Positions 78-25,782 of a stretch of 34,189 nucleotides of DNA are shown here, piece by piece. Each line of letters begins with the position of its first letter. Position 1 is the stretch's first letter. The notes under the pieces were generated by a model. The model searched no databases. It saw only the letters and a list, made by a program, of their open reading frames with translations, and was not told where the DNA came from. Source of the stretch: Pigoraptor vietnamica (Eukaryota; Opisthokonta; Filasterea); assembly GCA_943704525.1 (NCBI GenBank), contig CALSCQ010001987.1, positions 1-34,189 on the forward strand, given 5' to 3'. The position numbers and the translations under genes are program-made.

Positions 78-2570
78 ATGGCAGGCAAAGAGACGACACC
101 GACCACGTCAATCCGCGCCCTCTCCACGGGCCACGCGGCGACCTTCATTCCGGCTGGATGCGCGCATCCACTTCGCAGCCTCGTCGGATGGGCGGCTCCC
201 TTTGTGGTCATCGGCCTCCCCTCGGAGCAGCAGGTGTGTGACAACTCAGAGAGGGGGCATTAAGCGCACCGAAAGATGCAGACCGCTGACTTTCGACTCC
301 GTGCAGAGCGAGGGATTGGCCGACGACGCAGTGTCTCTGGACCTTCCCGCGCAGCAGCCAAGCGCGCACTTTTTTGCCACCGTGCCGCACATTTCCGTGG
401 GCAACAGCAAGCCGCCTAGCTGGTGGGTGTGTGCGTGGAGCTGCTTCGCTGGAGATGTTGTACTCGCACGAATAGAAGGCTCACAATGGCGCCTGTGCCT
501 CGCCACTTAGCCACTATCTCCGAGGAGCGGAAGGGGCCGCTGCAGTGGATGCGCGGCAAGTGACCGTGGACGAGTCGCTTCTTGACATGGAGTCGATGGA
601 GCTTGGAGTCGCCAGGTGAGCATGCTTTCTAAAGTTGTACCGTAACCGCACACGCACACATTAACTTTTTTGGTTGTCCATTTGCATTCGGACCGCTGAA
701 TTGAAATCTTGCGTGTGCAGGCAAGTTCTGAGCGCGGTGGTTCAGGCGCGGTCCGTCTGCGCGCACCCGCAGTCACCCGCAGTGTGGGTCCAGACAAACT
801 CCTCGGAAACTCCTTACCTCGGTATCGAAGTCCGCGCGGCCGCAAAGGCGGACGATGAGGTTGGAACACATTTTCCAATTGCGTGTTCCTTCGCTGCTCT
901 CTGTAAGCTTGTTCACGTGCCATCGAAACCTCGGCTGAACTCCTTTCGTCTCTCCCAGCTTCGCGTCGCCGGCACATACAGCGTGCAGTGCTCTCGCCAG
1001 CCAGTTTCGGCGCGGCAGAAGTATGGCTGCTCGTTGGTCCCTCAGATCGACAGGCTCGTCGCAGAGTACCTGGCGTATTGCGGCGGACACAATGGCATGC
1101 GCGTGGCAACACACGGACGCGCCGTCTACGACATTCTCGGCAACGGCACCGTCACGGAGGCGACGGCCCTTGGCGGCGGCTCGGCGGCCAACGCGCTCAG
1201 CACCGTGGCCGTGGAGATGGCGTGGGCGAACGTCGACAAGGTGCTCGCCCCGCCCGCATATGCCAGCGACTGCGTCGTGTCCGTGCGCGCTGTGCCCGGA
1301 GACAAGAGGTCCGCGGCGCGGGCGCTGCATGAAGAGCTGTTGCGCCTTCAGGCGATATGCGATTACGTCGTGGGCGGTAATTGGCCCGCGTCGGCGACCG
1401 CAGAGATGGGAGAGGACGCCGTGAGGCTTCTCGCTCACCGCTTCGTCGAGAACCCGTCCGCGACTTCCCGCGTCCTTCCCGCAGTTTCCGTCCCTTCTCA
1501 AGACGCCGACGGAGCCGCCATGCCGGCGTCGTCCTCGTCGCTGCTGCCACAGCGCGGCGACATGGATTTCTCCGAGCGCCTGTGGCGGCTTGCCATGTGC
1601 TCGGCCACTGCGGCGGAGGCTTGTCGGGTGATGCGCGCCGTTCTCCGCCTGGTGGCGATCGGCAGCGGCATGCCCACCGTTCACAAGTCGAACCGCGGCG
1701 CCATCGCGGACGTTGTGCGCAAGTGCATCGCCCTCGCCCGCGCGCGCGGCGCCTCGACGCCCGCGGCCATCCGCGAGTCCGAGTCGGCGCTGCTGGCGGA
1801 GATTGACGCACTTTGCGGCCCCGGGCGCGAACGCGAGGGCGTCGCCGCGCTCGTCGCGTGCGCGTTCCAGAAGGTGGCCAAGGACCACGTAGCCGTCCTC
1901 TCGGCGCACGACGAACTGATGAGCGCCGCTGTTCTCGAGCGCCTCGTGCCAGCGCGCGCGGAGCACGGATACGAGTGCGACAAGGCGCTTCGCTCGCTGT
2001 GGGCGTTGCACGCCGTCGTCGAGCTCATGATCACGGCCACTTCCCTCGCCGGCATCCCACAAGACACCGTGCGTGCGCTCGGCGCATCGGCCGTCGATTA
2101 CTACTCGGAGCACGGAGCGTCCGTGCACCCCATGTTCAGCGTTGCGATGCCCGCATTTTCGTCGCAGGCGGCCGCCGTACGACAGGCGTGTGCCAGGTGC
2201 GTGGGCGCGTCATTCTCAATGCGGGGGAGTGTGTCTGGCGTGGATCCGAATCTGATGTGCCTGTGTGTCTTTTGTTGCGTATATTCGTTTGTGCAGCCTT
2301 TTGCCTGCCTCTTGGGCCGTCACGCTCGCCTCGGAGGCCAAGGCGGATGTGATGGTGGCTCACTACAGCGTGCGGACGCCATTTCCGCACATATTGAAAG
2401 GTCGGTCGAAGCGGCCGTTTCGTGCACGGATCAGCGCGTGTGTGGATGTGCGCCGCCGTGTGGTGACTAATGCTCTTCAACGTGGCGCAGACGACGTTAT
2501 GGACACCGTCGTTGTGGACGACAATCAGCCGTACAACGAGTGCAAGGCGCTGTACCGGTCGTTCTGCTGA
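78..2570 (+). CDS. ZWILCH: Kinetochore RZZ-complex subunit Zwilch, six probable exons
   Basis: Zwilch forms the Rod-Zwilch-ZW10 complex of the outer kinetochore corona, which recruits Spindly and dynein and supports the spindle checkpoint. Proposed exons are 78-233, about 476-615, 721-859, 959-2196, 2297-2400 and 2491-2570, joined in phase to a protein of about 618 residues, close to the animal length (about 590). Blocks that line up in order with animal Zwilch are: an HPLRSL segment in exon 1; ARQV across the 615/721 junction; AVWVQTNSS and YLGIEV; a VAVEMAWANVDKVL block; an ALHEELLRL helix; MDFSERLW opening the C-terminal helical domain; KVAKDHVAVLSAHDEL; and SWAVTLAS near the end. The 5' edge of exon 2 is the weakest point, since 476, 479 or another acceptor could serve. 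The 860-958 intron has no stop and keeps frame, so it could be retained coding; the family alignment favours removing it. The call is by remembered family similarity, without a search. Confidence 0.82.
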
Positions 2571-2853: not shown

Positions 2854-3795
2854 AGCCATGGCGCAGCACCCGCCGGTCTCGCAATTCGTGGGATCCTTCC
2901 GCACGATGTGTTTCGCACTTCGACCATTTCGTCGGACCCGCTCAACGAGCCGACATTTTTTTATGTCTGTTCGTTCCAACCGGGTGAGTTTGCTTTCGCC
3001 GACGCCTCCAAGTCGTCGCTGAAGCCAGCCGCTGTTGGCGCCAGCGGCACGACGTGTCTCGATAACAATGTCATCGGACTATTGCTGAGGAACCAGAGGT
3101 GTGGGCACGGTGAGTACGCACAGACGACCTTGCAGTCGTGGTTGACACCGAAGTCGAAGGGCAAAACGTCGCTCGAGCACCCAATCGCAATGGGCGAGGA
3201 CCAGAGTCGAGTGGCTTCGACGGCTCTTCCGCAGTCGGTCCCCGATTTCGTCAAGAAGATCCCCGTGAAGGCCAAGGGCACGGTTGGGCTCAGGCGCGGG
3301 GCGGGAATGTGTTTTCGCCTTCCCGCCGGAACTCCCCTTCCCAAGGGCTTAGGATTCGTCTTCGACGACCCCACGAGCGGGCACGGGTCGATTATTCCCG
3401 TGGAGGCGGTCAAGTGCGAAATGCTGAATTTTCGGGGAGACGTCTTCGCCAGCGTGCACGAGCTTGCGCGCCTCCCGTGGGAGTTCCATTGCGTCCTCAT
3501 GACTGCGGCTGCAGAACCGCCTGCGCAGCGGCCGAATTTCGACGGGGAATGTCACCAGATTGCATGCATCTTGAGCGCTAATATCGGCGTGGTCGACGAC
3601 GACGTGTCTTCGCTGGCGACCGTCCTCCTGGACCAACTCGACGCGGCGAACTATCCGGCGGTACTCGATTGGTGTAAGAACGGCAGTGACGTGACGGCCG
3701 CTGAACAAGTTCTCGACGCCCTTCTCGATGTCGCGCAAGAGGAGGAGAGGGAGTTTGTGCTCTCTGCTCTCGAGCGCATCAAATGGAATGGTTGA
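2854..3795 (+). CDS. Unrecognised protein, 5' end unresolved
   Basis: A frame without stops runs from 2854, immediately after an in-frame TAG that could be the end of an intron (CGCTAG), to a TGA at 3793-3795, about 313 codons. The first in-frame ATG is not until 3190, so translation probably starts in an upstream exon, or the protein is a shorter form from 3190. No signal peptide or membrane segment is seen. The middle holds the segment LPAGTPLPKGLGFVFDD followed by GHGSIIPVEA, and the C-terminus is acidic and helical (AQEEEREFVLSALERI). The order of an FRTS-type start, a Gly/Asn-rich middle and an LPxGTxLPxGL strand is faintly like the Tse2-type ADP-ribosyltransferase fold, which also has eukaryotic members. 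This is only a weak lead. Coding status rests on frame length and GC-rich composition like its neighbours. Confidence 0.55.
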   Translation, partial: SHGAAPAGLAIRGILPHDVFRTSTISSDPLNEPTFFYVCSFQPGEFAFADASKSSLKPAAVGASGTTCLDNNVIGLLLRNQRCGHGEYAQTTLQSWLTPKSKGKTSLEHPIAMGEDQSRVASTALPQSVPDFVKKIPVKAKGTVGLRRGAGMCFRLPAGTPLPKGLGFVFDDPTSGHGSIIPVEAVKCEMLNFRGDVFASVHELARLPWEFHCVLMTAAAEPPAQRPNFDGECHQIACILSANIGVVDDDVSSLATVLLDQLDAANYPAVLDWCKNGSDVTAAEQVLDALLDVAQEEEREFVLSALERIKWNG

Positions 3796-4773: not shown

Positions 4774-7700
4774 TCACATGACAATGCACGCGCGGCTGCT
4801 CGGTGCCTCGTGGTTGGCATCCAGTGCCTTCAGCAGCTTGTGTTGCTGCACGGGCTGCTGGCTGCGATCGTGCACCGCCGCCATCGATTCTTCCATGGTG
4901 CGAGAGAACGGCGAGTGGACGAGAGGCGCCGGCGCGGCGGGAGCTGACATTGCCTTCGTCTCGGGTGGCGCGCGCGCCGGAGAGGGCTCAGCGGGCGCCT
5001 CCTTCTTCGGAGTAAGCGGCATGCGGTCGACAGGCATCGCGGATTGCGACTGGCTGCGACGCCGCTTCTCCGACGGCCGCCGGTCAGACTCCGGGCGGTC
5101 CGCGCTGGGGGCACGTGGTGGGCGAGCGTCCGTGCGCGGCGTCGACGCCCCCTGCGGCCGCACCTTTTGCTTGGACTCTGGCGGCCTTGTCGTGTCGTTA
5201 GGCGGGATGTCGGGCACGGGCCTGTTCTCCTTCTGCGGAGTAACGAGGGGCTGTAGGCGTGCAGGGACCGCAGTGCCTTCCGTCTGGCAGCCGCGATCGC
5301 GCGTCGTCTGCGTGTGCGCGTCGACGGGCACGGAAAATTTGGCCATGACGTAAGCGTCGCGCACGTTTTTCCCCGCGGCGCCCTTGTACCGCGGGCCGCT
5401 GTCGCTCGTCTCCACGGCGGCTATTTCGGCTTGGGACATTCGCCGGTTCGTCTGCGTCAGCACCGACTTGCTCTCCGGTCCGGTTTGTGTCGTCATGGTG
5501 CGGAATGACGACGGCGATGGCTCAAACACGGCCGTCGTCGAAGTCGTCGTCGCCGCCGACGTCCCCTTCGCCGGCGGGCGGTCCGAGCTTACCCGTCGTC
5601 CTTGCACTTCCTTCACTCCGGCCCCATCGGCGTCTTTCGCTGACTTTTGCTTGTCCCGTTCGCGCGTGTCGGTGTCTTCGTCCGCCGTGTCCCTCCCGGA
5701 CGCCTGCGTGCTAGTGGCCGCCACCCGTCGCAGGGGATCGGCGACGCCGTCCGCGCCGCGCACCACGCGCATCACGGCCTTGCTGTGCCCGCCCTTCTTC
5801 CGCGGCTTGTCGCCCCGCGGTTGCTTCCCGTCTGCATCTGCAGCCTCCGATTCCGATTCCGACGACGCCGAAGCGTCCGAGTCCCTCGCAGTTCGCGCGT
5901 CTGTCTCTGCGTCCCTCGCATTCTTGGCGGGCGACTTCTTGGCCTTTGAGCGCTCGCGGCGGTCCTCGTGCCGTCGACGCTGCGGGGACGCGTGCAGTTC
6001 CCCCGACTCCTCGCTGGAACTGTCCCTGTACGACGCCTCTCCCTCCGCAGACGACGTGTCGCCCTCATCGGGCCCCATGCACGAATCCCTGCGCCCGCTC
6101 TCGTCGCCGCCCACGCACGTGTCCCGCTTCTGCCGCTCGCCGCCCCCCATCGCCGCCGCCCGGCGGGCCTCGCGCAACTTGGCCTTCAGCCGCGATATCT
6201 GCGCCCCGAGTTCCGCCTTGTCGACCAGCAACGCGCAGCTGAGGAGCGATTTGTCCACGAGCAGGTGACGGAGGGCGTCGCGGTCGCCGGGACCCGCCAC
6301 CGCACTTCGCGACCCTTCTATCGCTTTGATGGCGTCCTTCACGGTGTCCAACACAGCCGCAGTTCCAGTGCGGCTCTTGCTCGCGTCTGCGACGAGCCCC
6401 CCCAGGCTGCGCACGAGCACTGCCTCGGACCGCGCCTTCGCACGGCGCAGCGCCTTCTGCATACGCGTGAACACATGGGCACCCTTCTCCCCTCCGGCGT
6501 TGGGGTCGTCCAGGAGTGCGCCAAACTTCGGCGCATCCACGTCGCGCGACACTGCGTGCATCACCGCGATGGCGGCCTCGGCAATGTCGTCGTGGAGCCC
6601 GTCCCACAGCGCCCCCGTCTGCATGCGCGGCCAGTCTTCCGACTTGCGGAACGACTCGTGCAGTGTCTCGAACAGGCGCAGCGTCAACAGCTCGGTGTAC
6701 AGCACGCCGCGGTCAACGCCATCCGGCACTGCGGTCTGAGAAGCGCCAGGACGCGCCGGATCGGCCGTCGTCCCCGGAGCCTTTGGGGCCGCGCCATCCT
6801 TCGCGGGCTGAACAGCGCGCGTGGACGACAAGCTGATCGCGTCGTCCGATTCGTCGCGGAGGGACGCGGTCGCAGCGGGCGGCTTGTGAGCGCCGACTTC
6901 CTCGACGGCGCGTTCGAGTTCAGCGATGCGGCGCTGATAGTCCCGCTCCTTGGCCTTCCACACCAGCTCTGCGGACAGAGAAATGATGCAAACACGTGAG
7001 CAAGCGCACTTGCGCGGCGGAGAGGGGATGCAGAAAAGAAGCACGGTCCCGCACCGTTTGTGCGCAGCTTGTTCGCGAGCTCCTCGGCAAGGGCCTTGTA
7101 GTCGACGTCAATGTTGACGTGGGCGTTCTGCTTGATTCGCATTGCGCGCATGCCAAAACGAAGCGTGCCCACGGACTCGCCAATTTCGCTCATGCACGGC
7201 GAGATGCATACCTGCGCCACACGGGCAACAGCGTCAGTCTCCCCCTTCGTGCGCGGATGTGCAAAGTACATGCACCGCAGCAATTCACTGTGCGTGTGGG
7301 TAGACACTGTGCCTCCATAGTTCACTTTTGACGTACCACGAGGCTTGTTTTGCAGTTGCCGCCGAGGCTCTCCTGCAACAGCCGCGTGAGCTTCGAGTTG
7401 CGAAACGGGACGTACGCGTCGCTGGGCCCAGCGAGCGCCTGGATGACGTTGCCGAGTTCGAGGAGAGAGCGGTTGATGTGCTTCGCCTCGTGCAACTGCA
7501 CGCCCGTCGCATGAGACTTGGACACGCGCTCGCTGCCCGCAAGATCGCACCTGTCACGTGGAATGCGACATGTGAGACAGAAAACAAATCCATGCCTACA
7601 AAAACAAATTGTTGACGCACTGGCTCACTCGCGAAAGTTTCGCGCAAAGCACAAACGCGAACACACAGCGCCACCCACAGCGTGATGCGCCCACGGAGCA

Positions 7701-8823
7701 CGACGTCCTGCCCTTGCGGCAGACCGAGCGCGCCGTAGTCGAGGTCGTCGCCGTCCGACGCGCCCTCGTCTTCCGCAGACAGCGCACCAGACTCTCCCTC
7801 GCCCCCGTCATCAGACTCGGCCCCAGTGCCGTACGCGTCCGAATAGTACTCGCCGTCAGAGTCGACGTCTCCGCCGGGGCCGCTTCCCGGTGCGGCGCTT
7901 GCACGTCCCCCGGCTGCCATCGCACTTCGCGGACGCGCACGGCCGCCGTGCCGCTGCTGGTGTGTGCGGTGCGGGGGCGGTGCGCTTCTCACAAGAGCGC
8001 CGGTAGTCGAGTTCGACGAACCGTTGAGCGACGCAGAGTCCACTGGCGTCCCCTGCGCGGCCTCCTCCTTGCTCTTGGACATTTGCTGCCTCCGCCGGGC
8101 ATCGATGCGTCGCTCGACGGAGAGTTGGAAGACGGCGTGGGAGCGGCTCGAGGCGACGTTCATCCTGGTCTCTGCGAACACCAGCCGCGCGCGACCGGCC
8201 TTCATGAGCGCAGCCACTTCGCGCGGCGAACGCACTACAAACTCGGACAGATTCTCCACGAATACGCCCGACTGCGGGTGCTCGCGGATTTCGAGAGGGC
8301 CGCTCGCGTCGCTCAGCAAGTCCTGGATGCGCTCCTGGTAGATCTGAAGAAACGACAGCGTCACGCGATACTCCGACGCCGTATCGCGCGCAATGCGGCC
8401 AAAGATTTGTCGGATCACCCGCGGGATGATGCCGCGTGGGCCCGAGATGGTGTGCGTCTTGCCCGCGCCCGTCTGCCCATACGCCATGACCGTCCCGTTG
8501 AATCCCCGCAAGATTTCCTTCACTATGGGACGGCCCACCACATCATACACTTCGCGGTCGGACGTTGGCTCGCCAAAGACCCCGTCGTAGCGGAATACCT
8601 TCTCTCTGGGCGTCCCTGCTTCCATGGTGATGGCAGCACCGTCGTCGGACAGCGTGTACGAACGGGGAAGCGATGTCGCCAGTTCCCGCTCGTTCAACGG
8701 CCGCACGCGCGCGTACACCTGAATGCGACCGCCATCTTCGCGAGATGCAAGCGCAGCGACCATGCGGCCTGCCTCGCCACGTGCCTTGTGGCCGGCATCT
8801 CCCTCTGCGGCCTTCGCGGCCAT
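4774..8823 (-). CDS. N-terminal-motor kinesin, 1236 aa, with CaaX tail
   Basis: This is a microtubule motor ATPase. Exons are 8823-7679, 7550-7337, 7211-7055 and 6968-4774, and all phases close. The motor domain spans about residues 33-490. It has [12 protein letters not shown], the P-loop GQTGAGKT (116-123), switch I NVASSRSH (about 222-229), switch II DLAGSE (384-389, CDLAGSE rather than the usual VDLAGSE), [13 protein letters not shown] and [10 protein letters not shown]. The neck reads TLRFGMRAM then DYKALAEEL, mixing kinesin-1-like and ARK/ungrouped-kinesin-like features, so I do not assign a subfamily. About 138 acidic, low-complexity residues interrupt the motor between VERR and RGRITL, at loop 10. 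A short coiled coil follows the neck (about 506-535). The rest is a long, charged, probably disordered tail rich in Ser, Asp and Pro. The protein ends in CIVM, a CaaX prenylation motif. The start ATG is the first in the frame. Confidence 0.9.
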
Positions 8824-9331: not shown

Positions 9332-12300
9332 TTACTGGGCGACGGCGACAGCCATGGCGTACTCGCCCGCGTGCGTGATGCTCACGCGCACAGACGACAC
9401 GCCGGCCCGACGAGCCACGTCGGCCGCTGCGCCATGCAAGAACACCGACGGTGCGCCTGTCGCCGAGGGCAGGACCTCAATCTCGCACAGACCAGCCGCG
9501 GGGCCAGTCCACAGCCGGGACTGCGACTGAGACGCGCTCGAGATGGCCTTGATCACCGCCTCCTTCGCACACCAGCGACCCGCGAAGCTGGCACGCGGAT
9601 CGGCCTGCGCAAGGCAGTGGGCCGTCTCGGCACTCGTAAAGTTGCGCTCGACGAACGTCGCGTTGTCAGAGGCGAAGGACTCGACCGGCTCGATGTCCAC
9701 CCCCACGCCCCGCGTCGGCGCACTTGCCTGCGAAATCGCCGCTTCCGTCACGGCCGCCTTCAGCCGCTCCGCGCGGGACACGGCTTCTTCGGAGGCAGTG
9801 GGTACCGCGCGTCCGCGGAATGCATACCCGCCCGTGCGCTGGTCGTGCTCCGCTCGCGCCAACGGATCGAGATAGACCTTCTGCTCGTTCTCGTCCGTGT
9901 ACGGAGGGCGGTCCTTGACGCGCACAAGCCCGCCGACGCCCGCCATCGCGTCGTGCATGTGACGGTACGTCTTGAGCTGCCGCGAGCGACGACGGTCGGC
10001 GTACGCCGCGAACGTGTCTGCCTCGATGGCGCTGAAGAGGAAGGCAGGGTGGACGACGAGGACCTCGCCGCCGACTTGACCAAACCCGAAGCTCTTGAGG
10101 AGGGCGGCCTTGATCAGCGGCACGCGAATGGCGCGGCTGGGGTACACGACATGCTCGCACGCAGCGAGCGCCGCGTCGATGTTGTCGGCGTTGCGGTTGC
10201 CCGGAACAACGCCGTCCTCCATCGCCTGCAGGACGCCGTTGAGCATCCAGGCGGCCGCGGCGCCCTTCGGGTGGCCCGTCAGGTACTTCTGGCAGACGGC
10301 GATCACGGGGTTTCCGCGCGTGCGGCCCAGGTGGGCCATCTGCGCATTCAGCACCTGCGACTCGTTGATATCGTTCGCCTTCGTGCTCGTCCCGTGGAAC
10401 GACGCGACAGCAATGTCATCGACAGTGAGACCGTAGACGCCGAGAGCCCCGCGGATCGGCGCGATGGACGGATCGCGCGCGTAAAACTCGTTACCCCAGA
10501 GCGCCATCGCGGCCTTCTCCTGGCGACGCGCCTCCTGCTGGACGCTCACCGCGCGCTCGGCGACGAACGCCTCCGCGTCCTCCGCAGCGATCTCGCCCGA
10601 CGCAACAAGCGCAGATGCCTCGTCGCGCAACACGGCCATTTCCGCGTCTCGCCACTCGGCCACGTGCGCGCGCTGCGACTCGAGCTGCCTGCGGCGGTAA
10701 TCGATGGACAGGAGAGGCGACGGGAACGCCGTCTTCCTCTCGCGCGCGGTGGTGAGGATGCCGCGTCCGGGCGCGGGCACCGAGCGGCCCTCCTTGTCCA
10801 TGGCCGTGTTGGTGAGCGCCACAATGCCGTAGATCGGGACGCCCATCTCGATCGCAAGCGCGGCGCTCATGAGGATCTGGTTGCCCGAGCCCTGCGACTC
10901 CATGAACCCGCTGCGGCTCGACGCGGTCGGGCGCGACATCTCCGAGGGCTCGCGCCCGTGCGCGGCTTCGGACTCGGCGCTGCTCGTCGCCCCCATGCTC
11001 GCAAACTCCGTCATCGACTCCTCGCGAATGTCGTCGAAGCCGCCGCAAATCACCACGCGGGCCTTGCCGGAGAGGATCGTCTCGACGCCCAGCTCAACCG
11101 ACTCGACCGCCGTCGCGCATGCGCCGACGGGTGTCTTGATTGGGCCGGAGGCCGAGAGGAGAAGCATGTTCACCCACGCCGCCATCGTGTTGATGAAGAC
11201 CTCCTGGAGAGTGTCGCCGGCGATCGGATTCTCGAGGTGCCGGTCGCGGAAGATGCCCTTCAGCGACCGAAGACCGCCCATGCCGCCTCCCGTCGTGTTG
11301 CCGACCTCGCTCACGTGCACGTAGCGGTAGAGCTCGTACGGGTCAGAAATGCCGGCAGACACGAGCGCCTCGGCCGTAGAGACGAGGTTGAAGAGCGTCA
11401 CGGGGTCCACCTGGGCGGCAATATCCGCAGGCACGCCATAGCGAGTCGCGTCCCATCCCGTCGGAAGCTGCCCGGCGACGTAGCGGTCAAACTTGAGGGC
11501 GCGAGGCACGTACAACGTTGCGCCCTTGCGAAGAACGACCGCCCACGTGCCGTCCGGACGCTCGAAGACTTCAGCCTTGTCGCCGTGTTCGCGCTTGAAC
11601 GTCGCCGCCTCCTCGGCGGACGCCTCAATCGGTGGCATGTCCTTCGTGATGGCGACCTGCCGCATGAATTGCTTGCGGTCGGGATCAAAACCGCCGACGA
11701 CCGAGGGCTCGACGATGCGGATGCCGGCGTGCGAAAGGATGCGCTGCTCGTAGCGTTCCTTAATCTCGGCGTCGCGCACGGGAAGGCCCGTGGCCGCATC
11801 GACCCAGCCAGCGTACGGCATGCGCGCGTCGCCGCCCGAGGACAGCGGGCCCGTGTGGTGACGTATGAAGCCCATAATCCAGGCCATTTCGACGCACCCC
11901 TCAAGCGAGAACTCGCCGCTGCGCTCCATCTCCCACCGCGTGCGCGCGCTGCCCCACGGTCCCACCTCACCGTAGCCGACGATGACGACGACGCGCTCGA
12001 GGTCGAGCATGCCGCGCAGGCGTCCGCCAGTCAGCGCCTCCATCTCTTCGCGCGACGGCAGGTTCGGGTACCGGAAGCACATGTTCGCGCGCCTCTCGAC
12101 GGGACGGGGACCTTCCGCCGCAGCCGCGGCCGACGCAGACTGGCCGGCAACGACGGCCTCGTCAACAGCGACGTCCTTGGCTACGGCTGCGCGGACGGAC
12201 GACCGCCCAGCCAAGTCGCGGCGGAGGGCAGTGATGCGCTCGTTGAACTTGTCGACGCGGTCGAAACCGCCGCCGAAGTCGGCCCACACAGGCGCCTCCT

Positions 12301-15300
12301 GCGACAGCGTCACGATCGACGGGTGCAGAAGAGCGACGATGTTGAGCGCCATTTCTGCCGTCGAGAACGTGCGCACGCCGAGGTCTTCGATGCCGGGCGC
12401 GACCGTGTCGTTCGCCGACATGAGACCCGTTCCGCGCGTCCAGCCAATGACGGCGCCGGCGACGGACAAGTACTGCGCCCAGTCCTCCGAGTGCCACTTG
12501 CGGAAGAGCGTTTCGAGGCCGATCTTCGACTCGGCGTAGAGTCCGTCCGACCCGAACAGCCCGTGGTTGGGCGACAGCGGCAGCACGGCCAGCGCCGGGC
12601 GCGACATGTACCCGCGCGCCTCCTTCGCGTTGCGGATTTCGCCCAGCAAGCGGAGGACGTTCGTGAGCATGATCCTGTGTGCGAGCTCAGACCGCGAGTC
12701 GATGGACCCGAGAGGCCGGCCGCCCTCGGAAATGGCGGCAAAGGGGATGACAATGTCGACGTCGGACGCAAGGCCATCGCCCTCATAGACAAAGCGGATC
12801 AGGGCCTCGACGTCGCGCCGCGAGCCCTGGTTGAAGGGCAGGACCACGAGCGAGCTGCCGCGCGCGCCGCACTCCTCGTACATGCGGCGATAGTACTCGG
12901 TCGTCTCGCGAGAGAAGCTGCTCGTCGTCGCAATGACGTCCGCGCCGCCCTCGAGCAGAGCGCGAAGCACCTCGCCGGCGATGGACCCCCGACCACAGCC
13001 AGTGACGAGCACGGTCTTGCCCCGGAAGGAAACGCCGCGCCCACCGACACACACGTCGGCCAGCGCGCGGAAGTAGCGCTGCGTGAGAGCGTCGCTCGCT
13101 TCGCCCGTCGTCGGCGTCCTGAGGCAGAGGAAGGGCGCTCCGGCGACCGGCTTGCCCTTCTTCACCTTCGAAACCGCAGCACCGCGCTTCATCTCCTTCG
13201 CGTACTCGCGCGTAGTTTCGCAGCCGGGCCGCGTCTCCTCGTCCAGCGTGATGCGGCCGTCCGCACCAATGCGCACGACGGGCCGAGTGGGCTTGAGATG
13301 GCTGCGGAAGACCGGCGGCTTGTCCAGCGACGACCGAATTTCCGCCGCCAGCCACGCACACCACTTCGCCACGGCCGCCCACCGCGCATCATCTCCGGCC
13401 CGCTTCTCGGCCACGCGCGCACGGTGCTCGAGCATGTCGGCGACCGCTGGCGTCGCACGATTCGCAATGTGCCGCGCACGTCGCGACAGCCGCGCGACGA
13501 GGGTGCTCGGCAGCTCAGCACCCGCAGGAGCACACGCAACTTCACCTTCAAGCGCAACGACTTCCTGGCGCGACCAGTTGAAGTACGAATCGTAGCGACG
13601 AATCTTGGCCGAATCGAACACAGACCGGACACCGTTGCCATAATCCTCTCCGTGCTCGGCCAACCACGTGTCGAGCTCAGCACGCGTCTCCCGGAGGTCG
13701 TCGTGCGCCTTTGAGGTCGCGCGCGAGTCCGCAAACGTGTCGTCGCCAAGGTACGCCCTAAAGAGGGCCACCTGCTCGCGAAGAAGCTCCGAGTGCCGGC
13801 CAGTCAGCGCGTCGGAGACCATCCCGACGCCCATCGCGACCGAGCCGGCCACCGCGCCTCCCGCCGCGCCACCCGAAGCGCCGATCTTCACCCCGACTTC
13901 GGTCGCGTACGCGCTAATAACACCGTCGAGCCACGCTGACGCCTCCGCCTCCGAGGCAAGGCGCTGCGCGGGCTCAGAGGCTACGGCGCGGAGGAGAATC
14001 GCGTCCTGGCGGCCCTCACCAAGGCCGCGCGAAGCCATCTGCTGGCGAAGCACCGAGAGAGTGACGCCAGCGGGCATCTTCGCGGCGATCGTCCGCGCGA
14101 TCATAGCCCGGGCGCACTTCCCAAGGCCGGCATACGAGCCGCCGACGGCCTGCGCGAGTTGGTCGAGTGTCATCTCCGCAGCAGAGTCCACGGCGGTGCC
14201 AAACTCGAGCTGAATGTCGCCCACGAGCTCGTTCTGCAGAGCCGATTTGCCGGCCACCAGCGCCTTGATCGTCTGGGACGGCGCGATGGCGGAAAGCGGC
14301 CGCTTGAGCTTGACAGCAAGCAACACGCGCAGGAAGTCCAGAGGGGGGACACGGACGTCCGCCACCGGCTCGGCCTGCGCCGGTACGCCCATAGCGGCCG
14401 CAAACATTGCAGGCATGCCGACAGCCGCCGCGCCGGGACGAGGAACTGTAATGCCGTTGCGCGAGCCATACGAATCGGCGACACGGTCGAGCCAGGCGAG
14501 AGCGTCCGCCTCGCTGCTAAGGCGCGCGTCCGGCTCTTCTCCAACGGCGAGGAGCAGCACGCCGTCCGCGCGTCCCTCGCCGAGGCCGCGCTGCGACCGG
14601 AGGTGCTCGCGTGCGCGCGCCGCCGTGAAGCCGGCAGGCATCTTGGCACCGAACAGACGCGAGACGAGGGCGGATGTCTGCTTGCCAAGACGACCGTTGA
14701 ACCGGGGCTGGATGGCCGCCGCCAGCTGTCCGAGGGGCATCTCTTCGGGCCGCTCCACCGCAATGGCCCCGAATTCCTTCGCGAGGTCGCCGACAATCTC
14801 GTTCTGCAGCGTGCTCTTGCCTGCGGCGACCTCCTTGATCGTCGTCGTCGCCGGCACAGCCGCAACCTTCCGCCGCGCCTTGACTGCGACGAGCACCTGA
14901 ACGACATCGAGCGCAGTGACAGGCGCATCAGGAACGGACGTGGCCGGACCCGCAGGCATAGGAGTGACCGTAACAGCCGGCGCGGCCACGGCGGACACCG
15001 GCGCCGGAGTGGGCACCGCCACCTGCTCGACCTCGGCCGGCGCACCCGTGCTCTCAAAGTACAGCTGATCCCTGTCCTTAGAGAAGCAGAGAACAGCCCT
15101 GCGGCGGGTTGTCGCTTCGTCATACGCCTCGTACTTGAGCTTGAGCGTGCGAATCGCCATTTGCGATAGCGTCGGCTGAGGGCCAATCTCGATGACGCGC
15201 TCCACGTCAAAGTCGCGGAACATGCGATCCTGCGTCTCGATCCACCGAACGGGCGACGCAAACTGATACGCAAGAAGCTCCACCAGCAGTACATACGCCA

Positions 15301-18300
15301 GCCGCTGCTGCTCCTCCGCCGATGCGCCGGTGCCGTCCTGTCCGGCGTCGCCGGGCCACGCACTCAGAGCCGCAGCGATGCTCTCGCTGTCCGTCATGGC
15401 GCGAACGCGCTCAAAATAGCCGCGCGAAATTTCGAACGGCTCGGCAGTGAGGTTCGGAACGTAGCGATTGCGGAGGAGGCCAGGGTCGATGTTCTTCGGG
15501 TCAAGGCGACGACGAAGATACTGCCGGAAAAGCGGGACGCCACTGAGTAGGAAGCGCGAGTGGAACGGGACGTCGATACCGGGCAGCGGGATGGTCGCCA
15601 CGCCTCGCTCGAGCTGCAGAACGCCGCCCGGCGCGGTCGCGGCTCGTCGGTCCGTCGCAGCCGACGCGGCCTTGACGATGCGCGCCAGCTCATCCATAAG
15701 TCCGGTAGCCGACGTTGGTGCCTTCTGGCCGGCCGTCAACTCGGCGCGCACGGCATTGAGCGTGCCCGCGAGCGTATCGAGGCAACCGAGCTCCCCAGCG
15801 ACGACGTACTGCCAGCCCTCAACGTTGTGGTTGACAATTTCGAGAAGCGCGCCACGATACTCCGCAATGGCGGCGCACACGTACTGAAGGGCGGAAGCGT
15901 GCCCAAGCGCCTGCAGACCGGCGCGCGTCGGATTGACTGCCACCATGCCGTAACGAGAGCGACCGGCGTCGTCGCGGGGAACCGCGCACTGCATCGTCAT
16001 GCCGCGGTAGAAGCAGACGTCCACAAGCGACTCGATGGGGAGCACGTCGCCGAGGGCGGCGAGCGCAGCGTACTCGCCGAGGCTGTGTCCGGCGAAGACG
16101 CATCCGTCCTGCACCAAGCCCCTCGCGCGCATGTCTTCGTACGCCGCCTTCTCGAAGAGCACAATCGCCGGCTGCGTGAACTGCGTCGCGGAGAGGAGGC
16201 CCTGCGGATGCCGGAACGTGTACGACAGCGTCGAAGCGCGGATATCTGGAAAGAGCGAGCGGCTCGCAACCGTTCCGTCCGCCTCGCAGGCGTCAAAGAC
16301 CATGGACATGTAGTTCTGGCGAATGCGGCGGCCCGTCGTGCCCCCAAAGTGGACAGTCATCTCGACGGGGTTCGCACGCACGACGCGCAGAATCGAGAAG
16401 CCGTACGTCTCGAGAAAGTGGCGCTCGGCCCTGTCCCACACCGACCTCGCGACTTCCGAAGAGTCATAGAGGTCCATGCCCATGCCGACCTCCTGAGCGC
16501 CCTGGCCCGTGAAAACGTACGCCGTGCGCGGCTGCTCAATCTCGGCAGAGCCTTCGAGAACGGTCGCGCCGTCCTGGTTGCGCGCCTCGACACGGATGAC
16601 CTTGCGGCCGGCGCGCATGCCGACATGCGACAGGGAGACCGAGAGGCGGTCGTTAGGGAGCACCATGCCGACAAACCGCACCGAGTAGAGCGACACACGC
16701 GAGGCGTCGTTGTCGCCGGCGTGAACCTCGACCAGGCGGCGGACGGCGGCGCTCGTCCACATGCCGTGCGTGATGGTGCCGGGCAGCCCGGCGTACGCCG
16801 CAAAGTACGGGTTCACGTGAATCGGGTTCACGTCAAGCGAAGCGGCGGCGTAATGCTCGTTCGTCGGCGGCGACTGTACCGACGGCGACGGCGCGTCCGT
16901 GGACAGCACAGGTCGCGCGCCATCCGGGAAAGGGACGACCTCTTCGGCCTTGGCGCCCGCACGCTCGAGAAACGCGAGCACCGGGTTGCCTCGCGCGTTT
17001 GCGTCACGTCCGCTGCGATAGCAAACGGCGCCGACCTGGATTGCTTCCTTGCTCGCCGAGTGGGCGACAACGCGCCCGTCGACAGCCACGGAGTCGAACA
17101 CACCCGGACCCTTGTGCCTGACCTCCGTAGACAATTCGAACACGAGCGCCGCGCCGGGAACGACAAGTGTATCAGCGGCGGGCATCCACTTCACCCAATC
17201 TTTGGCGCGCAGAACAGCGACGGCCTCCGGGCCTGCGAGCACGACGCGCCGAGGGGACTCGACAGTGCGCCGGAAGGTGTGCGCGTAATCGTCGAAGGTT
17301 CCCCTCAGAAGGAACTGGCTGGTGACGACGACAAAAGGGCGCCCACCGCGTGTCAGAACGCCACGCACGTCCACCAAACGGCCGGACGCCTGGTTCTCGA
17401 CGGCCGTTATCTCTCCCGTGGTCTCGACAATGTCGCCGTCCCGAAGAGCGGGAGATCGCGCGCTCACAACTTCAAACGTGTTGGACAGGTGAACGAGCCG
17501 GAGAATGTCGCCGCCGAGGTTCGCGTGGAAGAGCGAGCGGATAATGGCACGCCATCCGGCCACGATGGCGTAGTCCAGCGGAGCCTCCACCGGCGGCGCC
17601 TGCGCACCGCCCACCACGGCGCTGCGGTCGACGTGCCGCTCGCCGCGATTTCCGACGGCCTGGCAAAAGTCCACAAGTCCGCGACGAGTGATCACGTGAG
17701 TGGCCCGAAGGGAGCCCGGGACGGTATAGTCGGTCGCGGACGCCCGCGAGAGGGGCTCGTCGAGCCACAGGCGGCTGTAAAACGCACGCACCATTTCCGT
17801 GCGCCCCTCCATCACCTCGCGAATGGGTGCGTGCCCCGCACCGGGCGCAAACTCGAAGCGCAGCACGAGGGGAATCGCAACGCCACCCTTCATCTCGTTG
17901 AGTGCCACGGAAATGCCAACCGTCTCGCCCGTCGCATCCGACAGGCGAATCTCGACCGACGGCGAGGTCACGGGCACCGACCGCATTTCTGCGGGGACGC
18001 CCACGTCGCCGAGGGCCGAATCGTACACCTCGAGCGAAGAGGGCCTCGATCCCGCCTTCATGTCGCGGCGCACAATGACCTTCTGGCCGTGCCGGGGACG
18101 CAGAACGCGGCGGAGTGGATTCGGGGCTATCGATCGACCTTGCACGACGGCCGGGCTCGTGAGGAGAGCGCGAAGCCACGAAGGCTCCGAACCGCCAAGA
18201 AGCTCGAACCAGTCGCTTTCGGTCGGAAGAGACCCAGTCTCCGGGAGCACGTAACGCAGTTCAGACACAGCGGCATCGTTTGCAATGCCACTGCCCGAGA

Positions 18301-21300
18301 CACGCTCGACTGCCTCCACGCGGATGCCGACAGGCAGCGAGGCCCTCTGGCGCGTCGACGGTGTCCAGCCGCCCAAGTACTCGACAACAGGAATGGTCGA
18401 ATCGCCGCCCGCGTGGCGCTCCTTGCGAAGAGCGTCGATGTAGTGCGAGTAAATGCCACCGAGAATGTCCGCAACAGGCTCGTCGGCGATCCTGCTGTGC
18501 CGCGCCGCCACGGGGCCCTGTAGGATGCAAACGCGGCCGGGGTCCCGCCCGACGACCGCGTCGATGTCCTCCGCCTGCCACAGGCTGTCCTTCTTGAAAT
18601 ACGTCTTGAAATCGGCGTCGATGGCGGGAACGAACGGAACGGGCTTCTGCCCCGGCCGCTTGCACAGGGCGAGGAAGAAGCGCACGTCCTCAGTCGTAAG
18701 AAGCTGCTCAGAGGCTGCGGGATACGCCGCGAGAACTTCGCGGACGCGCGCGGTCGGATCGCAGTTATTGTCGAGCTCGCTCGCACTTCGCAACACGGCC
18801 ACGCCACCCGACGCGGCAAAGCGCTCCTCGATGCGCGAGACAAAGTCGAAGGCGAGAGTGCGGAAAGAAGGGTCAATCCACCGCTTCTGGTCGGCAACGT
18901 ACGTGAGCTCAACAAGCCGCAACGCGACGTCCGCGTACGACATCTCGGGGAGGTCGCAGACGGAGCCGTCCGCCGATCGCCGGCCGAAATACACTTTCTG
19001 GTAGTCGGCATTGAGCGCGGCGATGATCCAGTCCTTGCTGCGCACGAGGGCGTCGAGCTGCTTGTCCGCCGCGAGCGAGAAGATTTCCTTGTCAAGCCGC
19101 TTCCACAGCAGAACGCCACGCGTCGCCACCTTGTGAATCGGCTCTCCGAGCTCCGACACGACCGTCGTGACGCCGCCCGCGATGCCTTCGTACGTCTCTT
19201 CCCACTGGCTCTCGTGCTCGATGCCGGGCGTGCACTCAGCAATGTAGCGCTTGACCGACGGCGACGTCGCGCACTCCTGCGCGACCATCACGCGCGAGCC
19301 GAGAAGAATGCCGTCAAACGGCATGCGGGGCCTCCCGTAGCGCTCGCTCCACTCGCCGGTAATGTACGGAAACGAACCCGCGCCGTCGCCAAAGCCGCTG
19401 CCGGCGACAAGCACGACGTTGTCGTACTTGCGGATGAGTCCGTACGTGTCGAGAATCGGCTGATGAAAGTCCTCGTAGCTGTGGTGTCCGCCCGCGCGAC
19501 CGCCCGTCCACTGGAGCAGGATAGGCACGTCCGGATGCTCCCGCGCAATGTCAAGCACTTGCCTGATGGCCTCGGTCGAGCCCGGCTTGAACGAGATGTG
19601 GCGTACGCCGGCCTCGCGAAGGGCGGCGACAATCTCGCGGGCGGCATCGGGCGACGGCACTCCCGCGGCAACGCAGATGCCGTCGACGGGAACTCCCTCG
19701 CGGCGCAACTGCTGGACAAGCGGGAATTGGAAGCCCCACTGCCGCGCGTTCAGGTACAGCATGTTGAGATTCACGCCGTCTCCGGGCTTCGTCTGCTCGA
19801 CGACCCGGCGAATGCGATCGCGAAGGGCGCGCTCCGTGTGGTGACCGCCGCCGGCCAGCTCAATGTGGAACCCCGCGTTGGTGACCGCAGCCACGAACTT
19901 GTCGCTGACTGTCGACGGCGTCATGCCGGCGACCATAATAGGCGGGCGCCCAAGGAGCTTGCTCATGCGCGTCTCGACGTGAACGGCGCCCGTCGTGCGC
20001 ACGCGGACGAGCCGAGGCGCAAACGCGGCGCCCCAATTCGGCGCAAACTGGACGTCGGCGACATCCGACGAGAAAAGAGCGGCCTTGTCCAGGAGCTCGG
20101 GGCGAGGACTCGCTAAGACGCCGGCGAGAACGACGTGCACTCCGGTGCCCTCGATGTTGCGGTGGGTGAGCGAACCGATACCGACGGCGCCACCAGGACC
20201 AAAGTCCAGAATATGCGTCGCTGCATGGAGAAAAAAAAAGAAATCTATCAGACCGATGCACATGCACACACAGAACACAAAGCAAGCGTACCGGCAGAAT
20301 ACTAACCCTTGACAGGCGCCAGCGTGCGCTCCCAGTGGACTGGTGCGGTGCAGACGAGTCGGATGACCTCCGCAGTGAGCGCTTCGCCCGGTGGAAGGGT
20401 CGCGAGATCGCTGCCGTCGAACGTGGAGTGGACCGGCACTTGGAGAGGATGCGTCCACGCGAGACCAGCACGCGCAACATCCCGCATGACCTCCGCCGGC
20501 ACGGCTGCCATGTAGCGAGAGTGAAACGGGACAGTCACTGGCAGGTAGCGCGTCGAGAACGACTGCCGGCGCCTCGAATGCGGGACGCGGTCCTGGGACT
20601 CGCCGTCGCGGGCGCGAAGGCGGCGGAGAGACACACAGAGCGCATGGAGGCTCTGCGGGTGCCCTGCGATGACGACACTGCCGGGCCCATTCACGAGGGC
20701 CACCTCCATCCGCCTCTCCTCCACGAGGTGCTTGTTCGTCTGCGCGACGTGACGCGCAACCTCCTCCGCAGGCATGTTGCGCACGGAAAGCATGGGCGTC
20801 GGTTCGCCCTCTGAGTGTGCGAGCGAGTCCTGGAGAACCGCGGGCGCCAGCGACGTCAGCGGGTAGGCCTGCTGGGCGCGAACGGCCATCCACAGAAGCG
20901 TAAGAAGAGCGACGCGGCTGAGCAAGAAGAAGTCCTCGCTTGTCTTTGCCGACGACGCGACAAGGCAGGCCACGATGCCCTGGCTGTGGCCGGCAGTATG
21001 GGAAAGCAGCGACGCAAACTCCGCCGGGGAGATGCGCGCTGTTCCCATTGCAACCCAGTAATGCGCGAGCTGCGTCAGCCCAATAAGCGGGAAGCTCACG
21101 GGCGCCGAGAGAAGATAATCGGAAGACGGCAGCTGCGACGGATTGCGCAGCCAGCGCGTCACATCGAGGCCCTCGCGGAAGAAACCGGCGGCCGCTGCGG
21201 CGGACGTGGTCGCCTCCGCCGCAAGATGGGAGGACATGGCATCCACGTACTCCCGCGCGAAGGCGTACGTGTTGTAGACTTCCGCCAGCTCGCCAAAGTA

Positions 21301-21951
21301 CGAGTCATTGCCCTGCCCGCCGAACATGGCGCACAGGCGCACCTCCGTCCTCGCGGCCGCACGAAGGAGGGCTGGCCGCTGGCGCTCGTCACCGCTGGCA
21401 CGCGTCGGCAGTGCGCGCGGCGCCGGAGTGTTGAGCAAGTGCTCGCAAGCGTAATGCGCCGAAACGACTTCCAGGCGCTCGTCAGAGGTCAGTCCCTGGC
21501 GACTGACGGCGGCGTGGACGTCATTTCCGCCGAGCTGGGACTCGCAGAACGCGTCGTGCGCGGCGCGAAGAAAGTGTAGGGCGTCGGCGTCGTCGGGATT
21601 GGCGCTCGCGTGCCTCTCGACGTACGCCAGCAGCCGCGCGAAGGACGTCATCTCTTTTGTCTGTGGTGAGAGGCACATATAGTGAGTACCAATAAATTGA
21701 GCACATATAGCGCAACACTGCCAGAATGTGAGTGGATATCTGAGTGATCCACTCACATCGGCATCCTGTGTCGAGTTGCTCGCGCGGTGTTCGCGGACGA
21801 GACGGTCCGCGACATCCCACACGCGCGAGCCCCCGTCCGAGCGCAATGGGACCGAGATTTCGGTCTTTCCGATCTGCAACTTGAACACGCGCAACGAGGC
21901 ATCCGCAGAGCGGCCGTTGCCGGTGTGCGCCATGGGCACAACTTGCGTCAT
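9332..21951 (-). CDS. Type I fatty acid synthase, fused beta-alpha, tandem ACPs
   Basis: This cytosolic multienzyme makes saturated acyl-CoA from acetyl- and malonyl-CoA. Exons are 21951-21757, 21660-20307 and 20220-9332, giving 4145 residues. Domains in order: acetyltransferase (GHSQG, 289-293); enoyl reductase (VAGMTPSTV near 611-619, GGRAGGHHSY near 754); hot-dog dehydratase (NPIHVNPYF near 1647, then GLPGTITHGMW); malonyl/palmitoyl transferase (FTGQGAQEVGMG near 1751, GHSLG at 1894-1898); an Ala/Pro linker; two tandem ACP units with carrier serines at 2319 (GKSTLQNE) and 2509 (GKSALQNE); ketoreductase (TGCGRGS near 2920, Tyr3078 in YAESK); ketosynthase (Cys3551 in GACATAVES, His3792, His3833); and a C-terminal phosphopantetheine transferase (GVGVDIE near 4025, WCAKEAVIKA). 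The order is that of fungal FAS1 followed by FAS2 in one chain. The splice joining KATHILDFGPGG across exons 2 and 3 restores a conserved block. No domain lacks its key residues. Long frames on the opposite strand are shadows of its GC-rich codons. Confidence 0.97.
13910..14925 (-). repeat. Tandem ACP-unit duplication inside FAS
   Basis: Two copies of the roughly 165-residue fungal-type carrier unit lie 190 residues apart (serine to serine). Both keep the serine in a GKSxLQNE context, the EFG turn, the LGK..A motif that opens the structural half, the KMPAG helix start, the RGLGEGR.D....L.AV block and the closing AWLD helix. The whole carrier plus structural subdomain was duplicated, not only the core. 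The protein copies have diverged, so the event is not recent. Confidence 0.9.
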
Positions 21952-22497
21952 GGTGGGCGCAGCAAGATTTGCCGACGCCCTTCAACGCCAGAGTGATGTC
22001 GTCAAGTTAGAGAGACTTGAACGCATCAAAGAGACTCTGCGGTGAAGCCCGGACGGTCCGTTGTGCGTGGATGCGCGTGCGTGTCGAGTGGATTCGAGAG
22101 GGCTGATGTGAGAGCGGCACATGGCGTAGGCCCCAACAACACTCATTGGGGCCGCAAATGGGCAGATGTCCACGTCGCGGTTGGCCAATTTATTGCGCAG
22201 AGTGCGCTGATTGGCTGGTTGGGCGCCCGCCGCGGGAACCATTAACCCTAACCGCACAGTATGGCGTCACTATTGGGCTGTGTGCGGGTGTGGGCGTAGG
22301 CCACGTCGACACTTTCTGGGGACCATGGAAAGTGGCGGAACGGACTGCGGGGACGAGGGGAAATGACAGAATATTCACGTGGAAGCCTCCCCTGTCGTTC
22401 ATGCCGAAACAACAGAGGCACATCCATGAAAACAGTTTGTATTGCACGTATTGTGTGCACGATTTGAGAGTAACATCATGTGACAGGTGCGTGCGCT
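21952..22497 (-). promoter_or_regulatory. FAS upstream region with CCAAT boxes
   Basis: About 550 bases separate the TDO stop from the FAS start. Three CCAAT-type pentamers lie 190-260 bases upstream of the FAS ATG: CCAAT on the plus strand at 22185-22189, and ATTGG at 22145-22149 and 22210-22214. The last two read as CCAAT in the direction of FAS transcription. A TCACGTGG box lies near 22375. The pair at 22185 and 22210 flanks the imperfect palindrome GCGCAGAGTGCGC. NF-Y-type control is an inference. Confidence 0.4.
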
Positions 22498-24963
<2,466 letters not shown>

Positions 24964-25782
24964 ATGGAGAACCGGCCGCCCGCGAACGGTGCGCGGCGAC
25001 CGCGACCGCTGCGCGTGAAGGTCATCAGCATCGGCGACGCAGGGACGGGCAAGAGCTGCATCATCAAGCGTTACTGCGAGAAACGCTTCGTTGCGCGTTA
25101 TATTGCGACGATTGGGATCGATTTTGGGGTGACGAAGGTGCCCGTGAAGGAGCGCGAGCTGAAGGTCAATTTTTTCGACATGGCGGGCCTCGCGCTCTTT
25201 CTCGACGTGCGATTGGAGTTCTACAAGGACACGCAGGGCGTCATTCTCGTGTACGACGTCACGCAGAAGGAGTCGTTCGACCGCTTGGACTCGTGGATTG
25301 CGGAGATGACGAGGGAAACTGGCGAGCTCTCGAAGACGAACGTGTCGGTGATGGTGTGCGCCAACAAGGTGGACCTGCGAAACCGCGTCGTGACCGAGCA
25401 GGAGGGCCGCGCGTGGGCGACGGCGCACGGGTTCGGCTACTTTGAAATGTCGGCGAACACCGGCCTCGGCGTGAACGAGATGTTCGACGCCCTGTTCTGC
25501 GACATTGTCGCGATCAACGAGACGGGGACGCCCGTCGTGACAAAGAAGCCGACGTACACGGCCGAACAGGTCGAGGCCATCCAGAAAATCAAAAACTCGC
25601 GCGACGACTACGAGCGGCTCGGCGTGAAACGCAACGCGACGGTCGATGACATCAACCGCAGCTACCGAAAGCTGGCCGTGCTACTGCACCCCGACAAGAA
25701 TCCTGCGCCCGGGAGCGAGGAGGCCTTCAAGGCGCTCGTCACTGCGCGCGCAGCGTTGCTCAAGGAGAAATCGGGCACATGA
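24964..25782 (+). CDS. DNAJC27: RJL GTPase (Rab-like, DNAJC27 family), 272 aa
   Basis: This is a Ras-superfamily GTPase fused to a C-terminal J domain, a combination specific to the RJL (RBJ) family. It is an intronless gene. The P-loop GDAGTGKS is at residues 24-31, TIGIDFG forms the switch I region, FFDMAGLALF is switch II, CANKVD is the guanine-specificity motif and MSANTG the last nucleotide motif. The J domain, from about residue 212, has the diagnostic HPD in VLLHPDKNPAPGSEEAFK. As known for the family, the catalytic Gln of switch II is absent (here DMAGL) and there is no C-terminal prenylation Cys. Presence of RJL argues against a typical higher fungus or land plant. The start is the first ATG, in a GCCATGG context. 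Confidence 0.96.
   Translation: MENRPPANGARRPRPLRVKVISIGDAGTGKSCIIKRYCEKRFVARYIATIGIDFGVTKVPVKERELKVNFFDMAGLALFLDVRLEFYKDTQGVILVYDVTQKESFDRLDSWIAEMTRETGELSKTNVSVMVCANKVDLRNRVVTEQEGRAWATAHGFGYFEMSANTGLGVNEMFDALFCDIVAINETGTPVVTKKPTYTAEQVEAIQKIKNSRDDYERLGVKRNATVDDINRSYRKLAVLLHPDKNPAPGSEEAFKALVTARAALLKEKSGT

Follow-up and report, generated by a model that had tools for sequence, protein, structure and literature searches.

The window analysed here is a stretch of 34,189 nucleotides of the filasterean Pigoraptor vietnamica (GenBank assembly GCA_943704525.1, contig CALSCQ010001987.1), and it contains a kinesin gene on the minus strand (8823-4774) which, in the spliced model, consists of four exons (8823-7679, 7550-7337, 7211-7055 and 6968-4774) and encodes a protein of 1,236 amino acids. 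All three introns are of the GT-AG type, and the ATG is preceded, at a distance of 36 nt, by a stop codon in the same frame. Exon 1 (7679..8823, minus) carries the start codon, the N-terminal part of the motor (Pfam Kinesin, 194.7 bits) and, ahead of the DLAGSE strand, a low-complexity, partly acidic insert; exon 2 (7337..7550, minus) continues with DLAGSER and the following part of the motor (a Pfam piece of 98.1 bits), and exon 3 (7055..7211, minus) with the motor end and the neck. Exon 4 (4774..6968, minus), in which no Pfam family is recognised, encodes a short charged segment, then a more hydrophobic one, a long stretch of low hydrophobicity and, at its very end, a CaaX box. The P-loop, switch I and switch II are all present in the motor, which identifies the protein as a member of the kinesin superfamily. 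The insert (7696..8103, minus; approximately residues 241-376) amounts to about 135 residues that stay unaligned between two matched domains in the comparison with PDB sequences, with GRITLCDLAGSE on its C-terminal side.

On the plus strand, a region encoding the RZZ subunit Zwilch (665..2570) is recognised by PF09817 at 44.7 bits (cut-off 25; match at 1190-1723), its probable ends being those of the open frames 665-2470 and 2256-2570. With its apparent end near 2570, this gene converges on the kinesin, the end of which (4774) lies about 2.2 kb away; between the two there is an open frame of 313 aa (2854-3795, plus) with a sub-threshold Tse2-like Pfam match (15.4 bits, cut-off 26.6). Other recognisable genes are a fungal-type type I fatty acid synthase (9332-21304, minus), the 5' part of which reaches the frame 20302-21981 and in which beta-like and alpha-like parts are joined in a single frame of 3,990 aa, with two Fas_alpha_ACP stretches; part of a tryptophan 2,3-dioxygenase (frame 23549-24478, minus, 90.6 bits); and a gene in which a Ras-like GTPase is followed by a DnaJ domain (24928-25782, plus), the RJL-type arrangement that is typical of flagellated eukaryotes.

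The CIVM end of the kinesin

A preliminary description of this DNA read the last four codons of the kinesin as Cys-Ile-Val-Met, and this is confirmed both by direct reading of the strand and by the four-exon model, which runs into the box: positions 4788-4777 of the minus strand are TGC ATT GTC ATG (Cys1233-Ile-Val-Met1236; 4777..4788), followed by the stop codon TGA at 4776-4774 (4774..4776). The last 20 codons have a coding-like composition, with a GC content of 0.80 at position 3 as against 0.65 at position 1 and 0.45 at position 2, and the last 300 bases contain no donor hexamer from a list that is itself incomplete (it lacks gtgcgg, one of the three donors of this very gene). The description further took CIVM to be a prenylation box, and the end is indeed canonical: the cysteine is fourth from the C-terminus, the a1 and a2 residues are uncharged and the residue at X is a permitted one. 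Met at the X position favours farnesyl transfer according to the customary rule. A flexible, polar linker is expected in front of a prenylated cysteine, and the residues that precede Cys1233, NHEAPSSRA, are of this kind as judged by inspection. The CaaX box is probably real and is probably functional as well.

How readily could such an end arise by chance? Cysteine accounts for only 9 of the 1,236 residues, and from the composition of the kinesin itself the probability of an end of the form C-[not DEKRP]-[VILMT]-[MSQAC] is 3.2e-4, or 1.1e-4 under a narrower rule. The window and 20 kinesin-holding loci of the same genome contain 1,618 frames that end in a stop and measure 80 aa or more, of which the wide rule fits three and the narrow rule two; the loci in this count were chosen for their kinesin content. 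The three wide-rule frames are the window kinesin, a frame of 384 aa on contig C1223 and a frame of 81 aa in locus L035, and since the first two both look like coding ends of kinesins, the CaaX ends are hard to attribute to chance. The genome has 39 distinct kinesin places, which is an upper bound given that contig ends may split genes; 26 of these were used, the window's included, and 13 were left out. A coding-like stop-ended frame was found in 11 of the 26 (L031, L032, L035, L037, L040, L043, L047-L050 and the window), although several kinesin loci have little sequence past the motor, so that some of the 11 frames may belong to neighbouring genes; a CaaX end is present in two of the 11.

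The second of these kinesins, which came out of a scan of 25 loci, belongs to a different family. Its last frame (contig C1223, L048:3678-4829, minus) is 384 aa long, ends in GGTKSQACVLQ immediately before the stop, has a GC content of 0.84 at third codon positions, and carries a KIF1B domain (38.6 bits, cut-off 22.2); the motor upstream of this frame clusters with kinesin-3 in both maximum likelihood (ML) trees described below. Its sister gene on C1305 shows the end ARKK in the frame that matches at the tail. A paralogue related to the window kinesin, on C955 (L033), ends in GASQ in the motor-holding frame, and because this frame end failed the coding test, its true end is unsure. A pattern scan for orthologues in collections of prokaryotic and viral contigs gave 44 and 5 matches, respectively, none of which was confirmed, as is to be expected there. 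As the evidence stands, the CaaX box belongs to individual genes of a single genome.

The enzymes that would act on such a box belong to families that are encoded in this genome. The beta subunit of protein prenyltransferases (Pfam Prenyltrans) is found in at least two places (C342 and C835) and the alpha subunit in at least one (C1257, with four PPTA matches, three of them over the cut-off), so that, as far as Pfam matches go, genes of the family are present; which beta gene would be that of the farnesyltransferase (FTase) and which that of the geranylgeranyltransferase (GGTase) is not told apart by these matches. The human FTase beta query yields weak matches at the beta places (26.0 and 22.6 bits), and a codon pattern of the YH[TS]CY type, which had 5 hits as against 11 for the reversed control, occurs at neither of them. 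An ICMT-family match on C79 lends weak support, because 5 of 14 control genomes gave a match to this family too, four of them over the cut-off. The failure to single out FTase among the beta places could be taken to favour the view that CIVM is a chance ending of a protein that is not prenylated, and so could the C955 frame without a CaaX box and the consideration that, with many features scanned, one striking C-terminus might be expected to turn up somewhere. Nevertheless, given that the composition probability lies between 1e-4 and 3e-4 and that the same small sample contains another coding-like kinesin end with a CaaX box, we consider this view unlikely.

Placement of the motor and the parallel with CENP-E

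The best PDB matches of the window kinesin are to KIF3B (242 bits) and to kinesin-1 heavy chains (235-215 bits), and CENP-E is absent among the 60 of 157 matches that were listed. For the phylogenetic analysis, a first ML tree was built from the window kinesin, the 25 other kinesin places and 13 reference motors, and a second one with two references added and the long-branch or gappy rows C54 and C1078 left out; kinesin-7 is represented in these trees by a single reference. In the first tree the closest partner of the window kinesin is C622 (UFBoot 100), followed by C955 (90), and the second tree returns the same pairing, with supports of 100 and 91; none of the 25 other kinesin places pairs with CENP-E in the first tree. 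Given that eight of the 12 reference families (kinesin-2, 3, 4, 8, 9, 10, 12 and 14) are joined by a kinesin of this genome in the second tree, the method can recognise families. The kinesin-2 and kinesin-9 partners, like the Ras-DnaJ gene of the window, would agree with an organism that bears a flagellum. Forced placements were compared for the window kinesin together with C622: a position within kinesin-3, beside KIF1A and C120, is rejected (AU p = 1.15e-5), one beside kinesin-1 is worse by 2.5 log units (AU p = 0.46), and one beside CENP-E is worse by 14.2 log units, a loss that the AU test does not reject at the 5% level (p = 0.097).

The window protein seems best described as an orphan kinesin with an N-terminal motor that is loosely kinesin-1-like, a description that we hold as one part of the explanation favoured below. 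The top PDB scores and the low cost of the kinesin-1 join link it to kinesin-1 and kinesin-2, whereas its clade with C622 (support 100), the motor insert of about 135 residues, an unrelated tail and the CaaX box set it apart from both. The preliminary description was right in not calling the motor clearly CENP-E-like; in both trees its partners are C622 and C955.

The same description saw in the farnesylated CENP-E and in the proximity of Zwilch the hint of a kinetochore link, and this has to be weighed against the other kinesins of the genome. When the human CENP-E motor is used as a query, the window kinesin matches in two pieces (38 and 53% identity), whereas the kinesin on C531 matches in five exon pieces with 59, 62, 67, 63 and 62% identity. 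By single-piece score the order is different: C1291 (193.9 bits, 44% identity), C591 (174.9 bits, 46%) and C892 (121.0 bits, 44%) come first, none of which groups with CENP-E in the ML trees, the window kinesin is fourth with 120.4 bits, and the best single piece of C531 reaches 63.7 bits, a low value due to the shortness of its exons. Identities above 60% are seen in single pieces of C280, C424, C288 and C116 as well, but of the places listed with two or more pieces only C531 reaches 59% in every one. We note C531 (about 40424-42055), by its identity and notwithstanding that its score is not the highest, as a candidate for the true kinesin-7/CENP-E of this organism, and on this comparison it is the best one.

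That Zwilch is encoded some 2 kb from the kinesin, as had been stated, holds, and the genome also encodes ROD (on C999, with 161.6 bits against a cut-off of 24) and ZW10 (on C247, with 30.4 bits against a cut-off of 26.3). However, Zwilch and the kinesin are convergent and share no common promoter, and so their nearness means little; we see no reason for a functional link. In human cells, farnesylation of CENP-E is needed for the formation of the fibrous corona, and a farnesylated CENP-E fragment recruits RZZ-Spindly (PMC10630089). In the same work, a survey of 194 species finds CENP-E with Cys at position -4 only in Opisthokonta/Apusozoa and Stramenopila/Alveolata, and ZW10 is described as omnipresent, likely by virtue of a role in vesicle traffic, with ROD, Zwilch and Spindly forming a coherent module (PMC10630089). 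The survey concerns CENP-E orthologues, and the window kinesin does not appear to be one of these.

Could the window kinesin nonetheless be a functional analogue of CENP-E, in which a farnesylated tail would dock on the RZZ corona, much as ROD is bound by Spindly, with the motor at work at kinetochores? It shares with CENP-E an N-terminal motor, a C-terminal CaaX box and a genome with ROD, Zwilch and ZW10; the role of the farnesyl group in human cells, the fourth place by single-piece score and a forced join that the AU test tolerates point in the same direction, and the KEN box and CDK-type sites of the tail (see below) suggest mitotic timing. CENP-E has a very long coiled-coil tail with a kinetochore-binding region, and the tail of the window kinesin, 730 aa without a Pfam family, lacks such a coiled coil, judging by its length. 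In addition, the motor falls outside the CENP-E group in both trees, C531 matches CENP-E at 59-67% identity in five pieces as against 38 and 53% in two, and Zwilch is just a convergent neighbour. Taken together, these observations make a CENP-E analogue rather improbable, and the kinetochore link drawn through the CENP-E parallel is not supported; a lipid tail on the window kinesin would probably hold cargo rather than copy CENP-E.

A proposed prenyl-anchored orphan kinesin

The tail itself, compared exon by exon with the genome and with the best candidates scored, finds no place at E<=10 other than its own, and the notion that it is common to another gene of this genome is rejected on this basis. 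Approximately residues 590-790 are richer in hydrophobic residues; from residue 757 onwards, eight of nine blocks of 50 residues contain only 4-16% (26% in the block 1007-1056), and this low content suggests that the tail beyond 757 is disordered. Within it there are three TQT triplets, at residues 999-1001 (5482..5490), 1010-1012 (5449..5457) and 1058-1060 (5305..5313), and one CQT at 1066-1068 (5281..5289), all on the minus strand and read by motif as predicted LC8-type anchors, the last in a variant form. Three TQT are observed where 0.11 are expected, a number reached in none of 5,000 shuffles; these and the other motif statistics of the tail are generous, because the motifs were picked after the tail had been read. 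The sites resemble the LC8 motif [D/S]KX[T/V/I]Q[T/V][D/E] as given in the literature (PMC3078936). A narrow literature search found no work that unites kinesin, LC8, TQT and multivalency.

A KEN box at residues 1085-1087 (5224..5232, minus) is embedded in VTPQKENRP and adjoins a CDK-type site of the form TPxK; for both the standard consensus is applied. KEN followed by P or N is reached in 41 of 5,000 shuffles. Full CDK-type sites number five as against 1.46 expected (66 of 5,000 shuffles), with plain S/T-P unenriched (8 observed, 8.84 expected). Two basic clusters complete the picture, KPRKK at residue 893 and the NLS-like KRRR at 1140-1143 (5056..5067, minus).

The closest published counterpart, as far as the open-access literature searched is concerned, comes from trypanosomes. 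The KinesinCaaX of T. brucei is a farnesylated orphan kinesin with the box CVIM, on which its prenylation depends as judged by radiolabelling and the deletion of which makes its localisation more diffuse; no known kinesin family can be assigned to it, its orthologues are confined to kinetoplastids by OrthoMCL, and nuclear membranes have been proposed as its target (PMC3206815). The likeness to the window kinesin is one of description rather than of sequence comparison: both are orphans with an N-terminal motor and an end of the form C-aliphatic-aliphatic-Met, CVIM there and CIVM here. The T. brucei protein has 832 aa as against 1,236, and the kinetoplastid proteins have a cysteine three residues before the box where the window kinesin reads Ser-Ser-Arg-Ala (PMC3206815). 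Among the titles and abstract openings listed in that search, the prenylated kinesins named were CENP-E and KinesinCaaX, and subscription papers may hold others. The earlier remark that prenylated kinesins are rare stands with regard to the scarcity of CaaX ends (3 of 1,618 frames), with two cases to be added to it, the published KinesinCaaX (PMC3206815) and the second CaaX kinesin, with its CVLQ end, on C1223.

The best explanation of these findings, in our opinion, is that the window kinesin is a prenyl-anchored orphan kinesin with a working CaaX box, comparable to the trypanosome KinesinCaaX; we assign to this explanation a probability of about 0.55. In functional terms, the motor would walk along microtubules, in a direction that we can only infer, and Cys1233 would be farnesylated, or possibly geranylgeranylated, followed by trimming and methylation of the new end. 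The lipid would tie the tail to a membrane, whether that of the nuclear envelope, a spindle-associated one or a vesicle, or else to a prenyl-binding partner, whichever of these is the cargo. If LC8 dimers bind at the TQT triplets, they would hold two tails together or make the tail stiffer, and the activity of the kinesin may be limited to part of the cell cycle by the KEN box together with the CDK-type sites.

In a variant of this explanation, with which its odds overlap, the box would be a lamin-like nuclear-envelope address, such that the NLS-like clusters and the prenyl group jointly tether the tail for nuclear positioning. The occurrence of KPRKK and KRRR in the same tail as the CaaX box fits this variant, and so does the proposal of nuclear membranes for KinesinCaaX (PMC3206815); basic clusters are, however, frequent in tails of this type, where microtubules may be what they bind, and we regard this specific address as quite unlikely.

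Lipid tails in kinesins

The presence in one genome of a second CaaX kinesin, and one of another family, suggests that kinesins may have gained lipid tails on more than one occasion. We tentatively suggest, as a possibility that falls short of being probable, that this lineage independently added lipid anchors to at least two kinesins other than CENP-E, one an orphan with an LC8-type ladder and an APC/C-type degron, the other a kinesin-3 (CVLQ, C1223). An orphan kinesin and a kinesin-3 that both carry a CaaX box in one genome would be evidence of several origins of the lipid tail, and of a role for it that does not depend on kinetochores. If this is true, then, together with CENP-E and KinesinCaaX, prenylation would be a general, repeatedly evolved means by which kinesins are attached to membranes or prenyl-binding scaffolds, and a genome that encodes ROD, Zwilch and ZW10 lets the prenyl group be tested as a cargo handle versus corona glue.
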